A stretch of 32,269 nt of DNA, from assembly GCA_035529395.1 (NCBI GenBank), contig DATKWT010000105.1:1-32269 (forward strand). The letters run 5' to 3'. This DNA comes from Dehalococcoidales bacterium (GTDB lineage Bacteria; Chloroflexota; Dehalococcoidia; Dehalococcoidales; Fen-1064). Positions 4,623 to 8,970 of this stretch are shown here, piece after piece (within the stretch, counting starts at the first letter, position 1; every line of letters begins with the position of its first letter). The position numbers and the translations under genes are program-made. The notes beneath the pieces are model-generated. The model did no database searches, had not been told where the DNA came from, and saw only the letters and a program-made list of their open reading frames with translations.

Positions 4623-4698
4623 GCCCCCATCGTCTAGAGGCCTAGGACGACAGCCTTTCAAGCTGTAAACATGGATTCGAATTCCATTGGGGGCACCA
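4623..4698 (+). tRNA. tRNA-Glu (anticodon TTC)
   Basis: The cloverleaf is complete. The acceptor pairs GCCCCCA (4623-4629) with TGGGGGC (4688-4694), followed by discriminator A and an encoded CCA. The anticodon stem ACAGC/GCTGT holds loop CTTTCAA with anticodon TTC at 4657-4659. The T arm is ATGGA-TTCGAAT-TCCAT. Confidence 0.97.
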
Positions 4699-5348: not shown

Positions 5349-5388
5349 CGCCGGGGCAACACCTCAGACCGCCTACTTGAAGAGAACG

Positions 5389-5425
5389 GGGTGACGCCAG
5401 CGTAATGGTCTGTCCGACGTCACCC
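5389..5425. terminator. Inverted repeat between convergent genes
   Basis: GGGTGACG (5389-5396) pairs with CGTCACCC (5418-5425) around a 21-base loop. It lies between the convergent genes ending at 5348 and 5493. It lacks a T-run on either strand, so a terminator role is tentative. Confidence 0.3.
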
Positions 5426-5492
5426 TCCCGGCGTACCTCGAGAAGGTGCAGCAGCGCCTGGTGCCTCATCGCGACCAGTCCACCACACACGC

Positions 5493-5645
5493 CTACTTAC
5501 GCAGGTTCCTGCCACGCTCCGGTATTTCCCTGTCCAACCGGACCATTTCCGGACACCTGCGCTGATGCTCGCGGAGCTCGCTGATGGGAAAGAGCCGCTC
5601 ACAGGCCGGACACCGTATCTTCTTCTCAGGCTTTGTCTCCGCCAT
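5493..5645 (-). CDS. Small C2HC zinc-finger protein coupled to the HIT gene
   Basis: A 50-residue product. It starts MAETKPEKKIRCPAC and carries the spacing C12-x2-C15-x11-H27-x3-C31, with ERLFPISELREHQRR between and after the first pair. The spacing resembles the C2HC finger of the ZC2HC1/zf-C2HC_2 type. Such a domain could bind one zinc and mediate RNA, DNA or protein contact. A basic tail (GRNLRK) follows. Its ATG overlaps the TGA of the HIT gene by one base (TGATG), so it is probably made by translational coupling and in step with that enzyme. It is too short for most ORF thresholds and may be missed by automatic annotation. The function is unknown; the metal site is inferred from residues only. 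Confidence 0.7.
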   Translation of the reverse strand: MAETKPEKKIRCPACERLFPISELREHQRRCPEMVRLDREIPERGRNLRK

Positions 5646-6118
5646 CAGAACCTGTCCTTCAACTGCCGGTAGGTATCCGCCAGTGCCTCGGGTATGACCC
5701 TGGTATCCGCCACCACCGGCATGAAGTTGACATCCCCCTGCCAGCGGGGAACGATATGGGTATGGATATGGTCGGCTATACCGGCACCGGCTACTTTACC
5801 GGTATTGGTCCCTATATTGAAACCGCCGGGACTAAGTGCCTCCCGAAGCACCCGGATACACTGTGTGACAAGCTCGAAGTGCTCGTGGAGCTCTTCGGTC
5901 GTCATCTCCTCCAGACCGGCCACGTGGCGGTAGGGGGCCACCAGGAGGTGCCCCGGATTATACGGATAGGCGTTTAAGATGATGAAGTTCCTTTCCGCCC
6001 GGTGTACGATATAATTAGGCGCATCGGTACTTTCGGCGGGTTTTTCACAAAGAATGCACCCGGCCGGTTTCTCCATCCGAATATACTCCATCCGCCAGGG
6101 GGCCCAGATATGCTCCAT
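5645..6118 (-). CDS. HIT family hydrolase / Ap4A phosphorylase-like protein
   Basis: A 157-residue histidine-triad protein. The triad HIHTHIVPRW lies at residues 117-126 (His117, 119 and 121, the last being the catalytic-type central region). The N-terminus MEHIWAPWRMEYI and the CILC pair (Cys21, Cys24) are typical of the bacterial Ap4A-hydrolase/phosphorylase-like HIT branch, in which the cysteines join histidines in binding zinc. The fold is completed by AYPYNPGHLLVAPYRHV. It probably acts on dinucleoside polyphosphates or nucleoside phosphoramidates in the cytoplasm. GAGGAG precedes the ATG. The downstream small zinc-finger gene overlaps its stop codon by one base. It is divergent from the metallo-hydrolase gene. 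Confidence 0.92.
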   Translation of the reverse strand: MEHIWAPWRMEYIRMEKPAGCILCEKPAESTDAPNYIVHRAERNFIILNAYPYNPGHLLVAPYRHVAGLEEMTTEELHEHFELVTQCIRVLREALSPGGFNIGTNTGKVAGAGIADHIHTHIVPRWQGDVNFMPVVADTRVIPEALADTYRQLKDRF

Positions 6119-6233
6119 AACAATCTCCTCACCGGGTGATTGACCACACCTATTCTAATCGTCCGCCTCCGGCAGGTCAAAGCCATTGTAGCAGAAACCG
6201 TTATGGCAACGCCCGTGTTGCAGCAATGCCCGT

Positions 6234-6261
6234 TGCAGCAACGGGCAGCATCCGCTATAGT
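6234..6261 (+). promoter_or_regulatory. Promoter of the metallo-beta-lactamase-fold gene
   Basis: TTGCAG (6234-6239) and TATAGT (6256-6261) are separated by 16 bases. The predicted start point, about 6268, is only three bases before the ATG at 6271, implying a leaderless or nearly leaderless mRNA. The promoter overlaps a repeated GCCCGTGTTGCAGCAA/GCCCGTTGCAGCAA motif. Confidence 0.5.
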
Positions 6262-6270
6262 GAGACTGGT

Positions 6271-7101
6271 ATGAAGAGCAAGGACCTGTCCGGCGAGACG
6301 ATTACGTTTCTGGGCACCGGTGGCGCCAGGTTCATGATAATCAGCCAGATGCTTGCTTCAGGCGGTCTCTGGCTGAACATGAGCGGCACCGAGATACTTA
6401 TCGACCCCGGCCCCGGCTGTATCGTCCAAGCCACCAGGAGGAAGCTCAAGGCGGAGAATCTGAGCGCCATCATTCTGTCGCACCGCCACCTTGACCACTC
6501 GGCCGACATCAATATAATGGTCGAGGCGATGACCCAGGGCGGTTTCAAGAATCAGGGCCGCCTGTTTGCCCCGGCCGATGCCCTGGAGGGTGAGCCGGTA
6601 ATCTTCTCCTACCTCAAGGAACGCCTGGACGGCATCGAGTTGCTTGAAGCCGGGAAGTCCTACACCGTGGGCAATGTCTCCTTCACCACGCCGGTACGCC
6701 ACATACATCCGGTTGAAACCTACGGCATGGTCTTCAAGACTGCCCGTCATACCTTCTCCTGCATTACGGATACCCGCTACTTCGACGGCCTGACCGATTA
6801 CTACAAGAATGAATTGCTGGTTATCAACGTGGTTTTCATGGAACCCCGCACCCCGCAAAGCCACCCCGATACACCCATCGACCACCTGTCTGTTCCTGAT
6901 GTCGAACGTATTGTCAGCGAAATAAGGCCGAAGGCGGCCATACTGACGCATTTCGGGATGGGTGTCTGGCGGAACAATCCCCGGGAGATTGCCGAGAAGC
7001 TGTCCGAGAAGACCGGCGTGAAGGTTATCGCCGCCCGCGACGGCATGAAATTCGACCTCGCCGAACTGGATGCGGACCAGGCCCAGCCGTCCTCAACTTA
7101 G
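6271..7101 (+). CDS. Metallo-beta-lactamase-fold hydrolase
   Basis: A 276-residue protein with the binuclear metal motif H71-R-H73-L-D75-H76. It also has a later His in VRHIHPVETYG, an Asp in CITDTRY and a His in ILTHFG, so all ligands of an MBL-fold hydrolase are present. The N-terminal ITFLGTGGARF resembles the RNase Z/phosphodiesterase-like branch rather than antibiotic-degrading lactamases. The reading frame extends upstream to 6136, but that part is low-complexity and unlike the family, so the ATG at 6271 is chosen. There is no Shine-Dalgarno and a promoter lies directly upstream. The substrate is unknown. The radical SAM gene follows 33 bases downstream with its own -10 box. Confidence 0.85.
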   Translation: MKSKDLSGETITFLGTGGARFMIISQMLASGGLWLNMSGTEILIDPGPGCIVQATRRKLKAENLSAIILSHRHLDHSADINIMVEAMTQGGFKNQGRLFAPADALEGEPVIFSYLKERLDGIELLEAGKSYTVGNVSFTTPVRHIHPVETYGMVFKTARHTFSCITDTRYFDGLTDYYKNELLVINVVFMEPRTPQSHPDTPIDHLSVPDVERIVSEIRPKAAILTHFGMGVWRNNPREIAEKLSEKTGVKVIAARDGMKFDLAELDADQAQPSST

Positions 7102-7134: not shown

Positions 7135-8970
7135 GTGACCATCAATAAGGCCAACCTCGATAAAATACTGCACCGCGTAACCCGGCCCGCCCGTTATACC
7201 GGCGGCGAGTGGAACAGCATCGTCAAGGACTGGGCAGCTACTCCCATTCGTGTCGCCCTCTCTTACCCGGACACCTACGAGGTGGGTATGTCCAATATGG
7301 CCCTGCCCATCCTCTATGGCCTGCTCAACGGCCAGCCTGACGTCCTCGCGGAGAGGGTGTTTGCCCCCTGGGTGGACATGGCGGCCGCGATGAGGGAATC
7401 CGACATTCCCCTGTTCAGCCTGGAATCGAAACGCCCACTGGCTGAGTTCGACATAATTGGTTTCTCCCTGGGCTACGAGCTGACCTATACCAACGTACTG
7501 AACATGCTGGACCTGGCGGGAATCCCGGTCCGTGCCGCCGAGAGGGACGATTCCCACCCGCTGGTGATTGCCGGCGGTAGCTGCGCCCTTAACCCGGAGC
7601 CGATGGCGGACTTCATTGACGTCTTCGTTATTGGTGATGGTGAGGAAGCAGTACTGGAACTGCTGGATACCTTCCGGCACTGGAAGGAGGAGACCGGCAC
7701 CACCAAGGAGCAATTACTCCGCCGTCTGGCCGGCATTTCCGGCGTTTACGTACCGGGTCTGTACCAGGTTGAGTATCAGACCGATGGTACCCTGAAGAGC
7801 ATCACCCCAACGGCACCGGAGGCCAGCCCGACCGTCCGGCGGCGCATCGTAGCCAAGCTTCCGGCCCCGCCCACCGCGCCGGTGGTACCCTACATCGAGG
7901 TAATACACGACCGTGGCGCAATCGAGATACAGCGCGGCTGCACTCGCGGCTGCCGTTTTTGCCAGGCCGGCATCATATACCGTCCGGTAAGGGTGAGACC
8001 TCCGTCAGAGGTGCTGGACGCGGCCGAGGAACTGGTAACCGGCTGCGGCTACAATGAGGTCTCCCTGGTCTCGCTGAGCACCAGTGACTACCCCGGGATC
8101 GACCGGCTTGTCACCGACCTCTCCCGGAACCTCGATGACGTCACCCTGTCATTGCCCAGCCTCTATATCAACAGCTTCACCGTGGAGCTGATGGACTCGC
8201 TCGTGTCGCGCAAGAAGATAGGTCTTACCTTCGCTCCGGAAGCAGGTAGCGAGAGGCTGCGGCGGGTCATCAACAAGAACATCTCAGACGACGAACTATT
8301 CGCGGCCTTAGAGGCCGTCTTTGCCAGGGGCTGGAAGAGTCTCAAACTTTACTTCATGCTCGGACTTCCCGAAGAGACCAGGGAGGATGTCGAGGACATT
8401 GTCCGACTGGTGGACAGAATCCGGGCCCTGGGCAGGAGCACGGCGGGCCGGACTCCCCAGATAAGGATTAACATCTCCACATTTGTACCCAAGCCGCACA
8501 CGCCGTTCCAGTGGGTGGCCCAGACAGGCGAAGAAGAACTGACCACCCGGCAGGAAGTGCTCAAAGAGGGTCTTCGGCGGAAGGGTACGCGGCTTTCCTG
8601 GCATGACCCCGGGACCAGCGTGCTCGAAGCCGCGATGTCGCGAGGGGACAGGCGGCTGGGAGGGGTTATTTACCGTGCCTGGCAGCTCGGCTCCGTCTTT
8701 GACGCCTGGAACGAGCACTTCAGCTATGAGAACTGGAATACTGCTTTTACCGAAGCCGGACTTGACATTGATTTCTACGCCCGAAGGCAGCGTCCCCCGG
8801 ACGAGGTGTTCCCCTGGTCACATATCGACATCGGCGTGACCGGCGAATTCCTGAAGAGAGAATACGAACGTGCCCTGGCAGGCAAGCAGACTCCGGACTG
8901 CCGTGAGGGCGCTTGCAACGCCTGTGGGCTGGAGGAATCAGAGCCGGCCTGTCAAACGAAAAGGCGATAG
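7135..8970 (+). CDS. B12-binding-type radical SAM protein (TIGR03960-like)
   Basis: A 611-residue radical SAM enzyme. The cluster motif is CTRGCRFCQAG with Cys269, Cys273 and Cys276 binding the 4Fe-4S cluster that activates S-adenosylmethionine. The N-terminal approximately 200 residues have the B12-binding-like layout found in the TIGR03960 family, including YPDTYEVGMSN (about 44-54), GFSLGYELTYTN and VIAGGSCALNPEP. The C-terminus holds a cysteine-rich tail, CREGACNACGLEESEPAC. The reaction of this family is not established. In other genomes it often pairs with a TIGR03936-type partner and ribosome or RNase E/G genes, which are absent here. The start is GTG with no ribosome-binding site and a -10 box immediately upstream, suggesting a leaderless mRNA. 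Confidence 0.88.
   Translation: MTINKANLDKILHRVTRPARYTGGEWNSIVKDWAATPIRVALSYPDTYEVGMSNMALPILYGLLNGQPDVLAERVFAPWVDMAAAMRESDIPLFSLESKRPLAEFDIIGFSLGYELTYTNVLNMLDLAGIPVRAAERDDSHPLVIAGGSCALNPEPMADFIDVFVIGDGEEAVLELLDTFRHWKEETGTTKEQLLRRLAGISGVYVPGLYQVEYQTDGTLKSITPTAPEASPTVRRRIVAKLPAPPTAPVVPYIEVIHDRGAIEIQRGCTRGCRFCQAGIIYRPVRVRPPSEVLDAAEELVTGCGYNEVSLVSLSTSDYPGIDRLVTDLSRNLDDVTLSLPSLYINSFTVELMDSLVSRKKIGLTFAPEAGSERLRRVINKNISDDELFAALEAVFARGWKSLKLYFMLGLPEETREDVEDIVRLVDRIRALGRSTAGRTPQIRINISTFVPKPHTPFQWVAQTGEEELTTRQEVLKEGLRRKGTRLSWHDPGTSVLEAAMSRGDRRLGGVIYRAWQLGSVFDAWNEHFSYENWNTAFTEAGLDIDFYARRQRPPDEVFPWSHIDIGVTGEFLKREYERALAGKQTPDCREGACNACGLEESEPACQTKRR

Follow-up and report, generated by a model that had tools for sequence, protein, structure and literature searches.

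A short C2HC zinc-finger gene overlapping a HIT-family gene in a few Dehalococcoidales genomes

We analyzed a stretch of 32,269 nucleotides (the window) from a Dehalococcoidales bacterium. On its minus strand, a gene of the HIT family runs directly into a short gene for a predicted zinc finger, here called the finger. The features of the locus are as follows:

5493..5645, minus strand: mini C2HC zinc-finger gene, 50 aa, basic, pI 9.7
5553..5612, minus strand: finger core C12..C31, C-x2-C-x11-H-x3-C, predicted beta-beta-alpha
5643..5647, minus strand: TGATG junction, with base 5645 common to the HIT stop and the finger start
5645..6118, minus strand: HIT-family gene, 157 aa, with the HIHTHIV triad at residues 117-123
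5651..5659, minus strand: Shine-Dalgarno-like AAGGACAGG within the HIT 3' end, upstream of the finger start, read from the sequence
6125..6130, minus strand: GAGGAG-like ribosome-binding site of HIT, read from the sequence
6152..6180, minus strand: promoter-like TTGACC-17-TAGAAT upstream of HIT, ending 33 bases before it
6271..7101, plus strand: MBL-fold hydrolase, divergent from HIT (Pfam Lactamase_B_2, E 2.4e-23)

The translation of the finger ORF (50 aa) is MAETKPEKKIRCPACERLFPISELREHQRRCPEMVRLDREIPERGRNLRK. Its candidate ligands are C12, C15, H27, and C31, and the spacing C-x2-C-x11-H-x3-C is exact, which confirms the 50-residue protein described in the first-pass annotation. Translated in all six frames, the 32-kb window has a single match to the motif, against a mean of 0.04 matches per window in 100 first-order Markov resamples.

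The HIT and finger ORFs are in different frames and encode two separate proteins. The TGA stop of HIT occupies positions 5647-5645, and the ATG of the finger occupies 5645-5643. The one-base overlap that had been reported for this window was found as TGATG in five of the six finger-bearing genomes; it did not extend to the sixth, G010, which has a four-base ATGA overlap. There, the HIT stop is mutated to CGA and the next codon is TGA, so that HIT is one codon longer; the overlap thus outlasted a change of the stop codon. An A/G-rich string related to AAGGACAGG is present at all six HIT-finger junctions. The promoter-like site agrees with the consensus at 10 of 12 positions (one site found, shuffle mean 0.5). 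Upstream of HIT, TTGACC and TAnAAT hexamers were recognizable in all six finger-bearing loci, each of which also keeps the AGGAG. No terminator-like site was found within 5350-6300.

The MBL-fold gene adjoins HIT in both of the genera that carry the finger. Its mechanically called ORF starts at a GTG (6136) inside the gap to HIT; translation probably begins at the ATG at 6271, which matches the ORF start in L081. In NCBIfam, the product shows a distant likeness to RNase Z and PhnP, with all scores below the cut-offs. Positions 7135-8970 on the plus strand match TIGR03960 (780.7 bits against a cut-off of 462.3), a family of B12-binding radical SAM proteins whose function is unknown. The five larger finger loci all have an ORF of this kind close to the MBL-fold and HIT genes; in two of them, a small ORF intervenes. 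A tRNA-Glu gene (anticodon ttc) at 4623-4698 accounts for a "PRPLDDGG" peptide in the mechanical ORFs, and similar peptides near HIT in several other loci are probably tRNAs too.

Strong matches to the finger were present in 6 of 200 related genomes (E at most 3.4e-21). A profile search of 156 genomes of the order recovered the same six (E at most 1.7e-31) plus four weak ones. The six genomes belong to one family and are divided between two genera (g1 and g3, three genomes each); within that family, 6 of the 14 genomes in the set carry the finger. A search of genome contigs returned five finger loci, all from Dehalococcoidales or Dehalococcoidia MAGs (e.g., CP070842.1), which by their coordinates are apparently G001, G002, G004, G008, and G010. 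The order, phylum, class, and contig search sets overlap, and their counts are not additive.

The four ligands are invariant in all six genomes. Altogether 27 of the 50 columns are invariant, including the ligands and most of a conserved basic tail (GRNLxK). Pairwise dN/dS of the finger was 0.096-0.293 (15 pairs) versus 0.041-0.254 for HIT, and between the two genera DNA similarity collapses directly past the finger stop codon. The finger ORF is a genuine gene, narrowly distributed in a few Dehalococcoidales. The check in relatives that the first-pass annotation proposed gave a divided outcome: the Cys and His residues are kept wherever the ORF is present, but the ORF itself is absent from most HIT-bearing relatives.

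Further members were sought more widely. In the 200 relatives, weak matches occurred at 22 places in 21 genomes (E 0.005-0.09), and none held on inspection by eye. The four weak genomes of the order set, one of them shared with this weak set, were translated and dropped by eye as well. Draws of 400 genomes from the phylum and 393 from the class gave no convincing member of a wider family: on inspection by eye we dropped three frames from the phylum, two of them threonine-synthase-like and the third a chance frame, and a ferredoxin-like frame from the class. The threonine-synthase-like and ferredoxin-like labels are presumptive, given from motifs read in the sequence. The finger was not found in viral contigs, and the Pfam models zf-C2HC_2 and XAF1_C, used as probes in 161 genomes, gave no match over the cut-off. 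The parts of the literature covered by our search contained no description of a HIT-plus-mini-finger operon.

Two other small proteins were encountered. A four-Cys ribbon protein (KCxxC...CExCL) is encoded 28 and 56 nt downstream of HIT in L059 (G003) and L061 (G006), which represent sister genera lacking the finger. Matches to its family occur in 22 of the 200 genomes, some of them finger-bearing, where the ribbon lies at a different locus. Against the finger profile it scored 11.8 bits, below the 17.8 bits of an unrelated threonine-synthase-like ribbon, and we set it aside as a separate family and not a finger orthologue. In genome G050 (L021:1498-1635), a 45-aa ORF beginning MPEMVRCPTCGVLFTNRGFQNHVNKCKG... 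has the same C-x2-C-x11-H-x3-C spacing as the finger; from its sequence, this ORF may encode a further mini finger that stands alone and has no link to HIT. Its neighbors are presumably RadC-like and DnaE-like ORFs, names that we assigned by reading.

The AlphaFold2 model of the finger (mean pLDDT 75, pTM 0.46) has a beta-beta-alpha unit followed by a second helix, with a break at the last Cys. The predicted elements are strands at 9-11 and 18-20 and a helix at 21-30 (block pLDDT 87-88). The top Foldseek match was the WRNIP1 UBZ (E 0.21, probability 0.96), with the RNF125 finger and then the RAD18 UBZ below it; no match reached E 0.001. VIA-align gave Z values of at most 4.0, and aprataxin was absent from its rows. 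In a profile search of the PDB, the WRNIP1 UBZ (3vhs, E 0.0078) was followed by XAF1 (E 0.077). The best Pfam family for all six members was XAF1_C (PF18608; best E 7.5e-6), with the finger matching just 22 of its 54 model positions. The finger fell under every Pfam cut-off, scoring 23.8 for XAF1_C (cut-off 25.8) and 14.8 for zf_UBZ (cut-off 25.6).

These comparisons suggest that the finger resembles the UBZ4 and RNF125 types of beta-beta-alpha finger. UBZ domains of type 4 have CCHC ligands (PMC4370504), and WRNIP1 and RAD18 share the exact C-x2-C-x11-H-x3-C spacing with the finger; unlike them, the latter is bacterial, stand-alone, and below the Pfam cut-off. In WRNIP1, the helix residue Asp37, two residues after the His, contacts Arg42 of ubiquitin (PMC4370504). 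The corresponding position 29 of the six fingers is R, R, H, Q, R, and R, and we rejected a ubiquitin-binding role, since the contact Asp is missing in all six. The C2HC finger of RNF125 consists of a beta-beta-alpha unit whose helix is kinked at the last Cys and then continues; this finger is described as serving mainly to stabilize the adjacent RING domain (PMC4944129). The finger studied here is predicted to have the same kinked arrangement (Foldseek TMq 0.57); that of RNF125 sits in the chain of a eukaryotic ubiquitin ligase, unlike ours. We consider the finger to be a new family of narrow distribution whose fold, as predicted by the model, is a known one; this is a modest finding.

The HIT protein belongs to Pfam PF01230 (E 1.1e-15, 58.5 bits, cut-off 21.5), and its HIHTHIV fits the HxHxHxx triad. 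Its best PDB matches were 6af2, 3ano, and 3wo5 (E 1e-37 to 4e-36), with residues 2-153 aligned to 3ano at E 2.1e-36. By sequence, it is nearest to the mycobacterial Ap4A phosphorylase and to a HIT-domain protein of the same type. It shares the HxHxH triad and the NPGHL and VPRW blocks with the Rv2613c-type phosphorylase (PDB 3ano), and it scored 156 bits for the NCBIfam ATP adenylyltransferase model NF052622, below the cut-off of 290. According to a review (PMC7705103), the Mycobacterium tuberculosis enzyme has a true HIT motif and is an Ap4A phosphorylase. The available text of that review mentions no finger partner for the mycobacterial enzyme, whereas the HIT of the window has a finger as its neighbor.

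Finger-bearing HIT proteins were compared with others in 96 loci, some of them partial rows: the six with the finger and 90 drawn from the 181 genomes that have a HIT match and no finger. All six finger-bearing proteins have Ala in column 41, and 88 of the 90 others have Gly (one of the remaining two has Glu, the other Lys); identified post hoc by a scan of 157 columns, this column is the only one that separates the two groups. Its placement in a hairpin turn is tentative, because the HIT structure prediction was poor (pLDDT 48). The net charge of finger-bearing HITs was -4 to -9 (mean -6.2) against a mean of -1.2 in the 90 others, only three of which were at -6 or lower; the six fingers have a pI of 8.6-10.1. 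The two finger genera do not group in either of the free HIT trees (27 rows, careful; 96 rows, quick), both of which are weakly resolved. Constraining them together was not rejected (AU p 0.82) and gave a higher likelihood than the free tree, so the six finger-bearing HITs may be one clade with a single origin. As the genomes are few, related, and possibly of one origin, the column 41 and charge differences may be plain shared ancestry.

The finger lies directly 3' of HIT in all six genomes that carry it, and the pair stays together between the two genera while the genes downstream of the finger differ. Among the 156 genomes searched in the order, no copy located apart from HIT exceeded the chance level. 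A HIT match was present in 187 of the 200 relatives versus 6 with the finger; the finger is therefore an optional partner at best, and any help it gives is dispensable. The proposal that the pairing reflects joint action stands as far as a real finger gene, adjacent to and overlapping HIT in six of six genomes, is concerned; it does not carry over to most HIT-bearing relatives, which lack the finger. The accompanying idea of a "substrate adaptor" for HIT is a guess.

Our preferred explanation, which we put forward tentatively and at somewhat under even chances, is that the finger acts as a lineage-specific accessory subunit, which binds the HIT encoded beside it and stabilizes or tunes that enzyme. 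HIT and the finger would form one transcription unit with the finger as second cistron, made by overlapping and probably coupled translation. The product would be one zinc finger with the beta-beta-alpha fold of the UBZ4/RNF125 type, extended by a second helix and the basic GRNLxK tail. The basic finger and tail might dock on the more acidic HIT, and the docked finger would stabilize or tune the enzyme, by analogy with the RNF125 finger and its neighboring domain. We infer the zinc binding, the contact with HIT, and an effect on Ap4A-type chemistry, and likewise the partnership as a whole. The proposed shared transcription is not in itself proof of contact between HIT and the finger.

Alternatively, the finger could be a stand-alone small protein that binds nucleic acids or has a regulatory role, placed in the HIT operon for dosage and making no contact with HIT. 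The finger is small, basic, and predicted to be a single beta-beta-alpha unit, and HIT exists elsewhere without it. DNA binding is described for a comparable protein of an archaeal virus, which likewise has one beta-beta-alpha finger (PMC3541406). We nevertheless regard this explanation as rather unlikely: in the 200 relatives and in the order, phylum, and class sets, the finger was never seen away from HIT above chance level, and the HITs of finger-bearing genomes have a substitution of their own at residue 41 and a shifted charge.

Much less probable is a split device like aprataxin, in which the detached finger would bring HIT to nucleic-acid ends, as the C-terminal finger does in aprataxin. 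The aprataxin of S. pombe has a HIT domain and a C-terminal zinc finger in one chain (PMC4499129), and the order of parts, HIT and then finger, is the same in both systems. Aprataxin also has an RC..C..L.P spacing similar to that of the finger, and the alignment of the finger with human aprataxin outscored 1000 of 1000 shuffles that held Cys and His fixed. However, an unrelated ribbon gave a higher shuffle Z than aprataxin (4.95 and 4.54); the pairwise shuffle test thus does not discriminate, and we did not use it for kinship. The ligand spacing also differs, being C-x2-C-x13-H-x3-E in S. pombe aprataxin (Cys200, Cys203, His217, and Glu221; PMC4499129), with x11 and a Cys here. The HIT of aprataxin is of another branch and shares its chain with the finger, whereas here there are two overlapping ORFs. 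Aprataxin was absent from the 22 PDB matches of HIT at E 0.001, of which Ap4A phosphorylase was nearest, and Pfam listed no aprataxin finger model at E 1. It is just as improbable that a detached finger of UBZ4 fold complexes with a HIT of the Ap4A-phosphorylase type and redirects it from free dinucleotides to adenylated DNA or Np4A-capped RNA ends. We rejected a chance frame or decaying remnant, which we give almost no credence: the ORF has just 50 codons and occurs in 6 of 200 relatives, but its ligands are conserved, its dN/dS is 0.10-0.29, 27 of 50 columns are invariant with conservation stopping at the stop codon, and the motif null is 0.04 per window.

If the pairing is real, a HIT nucleotide enzyme has gained an add-on subunit whose fold is best known from eukaryotic ubiquitin signaling, here without the main ubiquitin-contact residue. 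This would be a simple case of one bacterial lineage acquiring a protein-protein module. If HIT and the finger do not interact, the finger would be one more lineage-specific small zinc protein, and a family model would still be worthwhile, to keep it from being dropped in gene calling and annotation.
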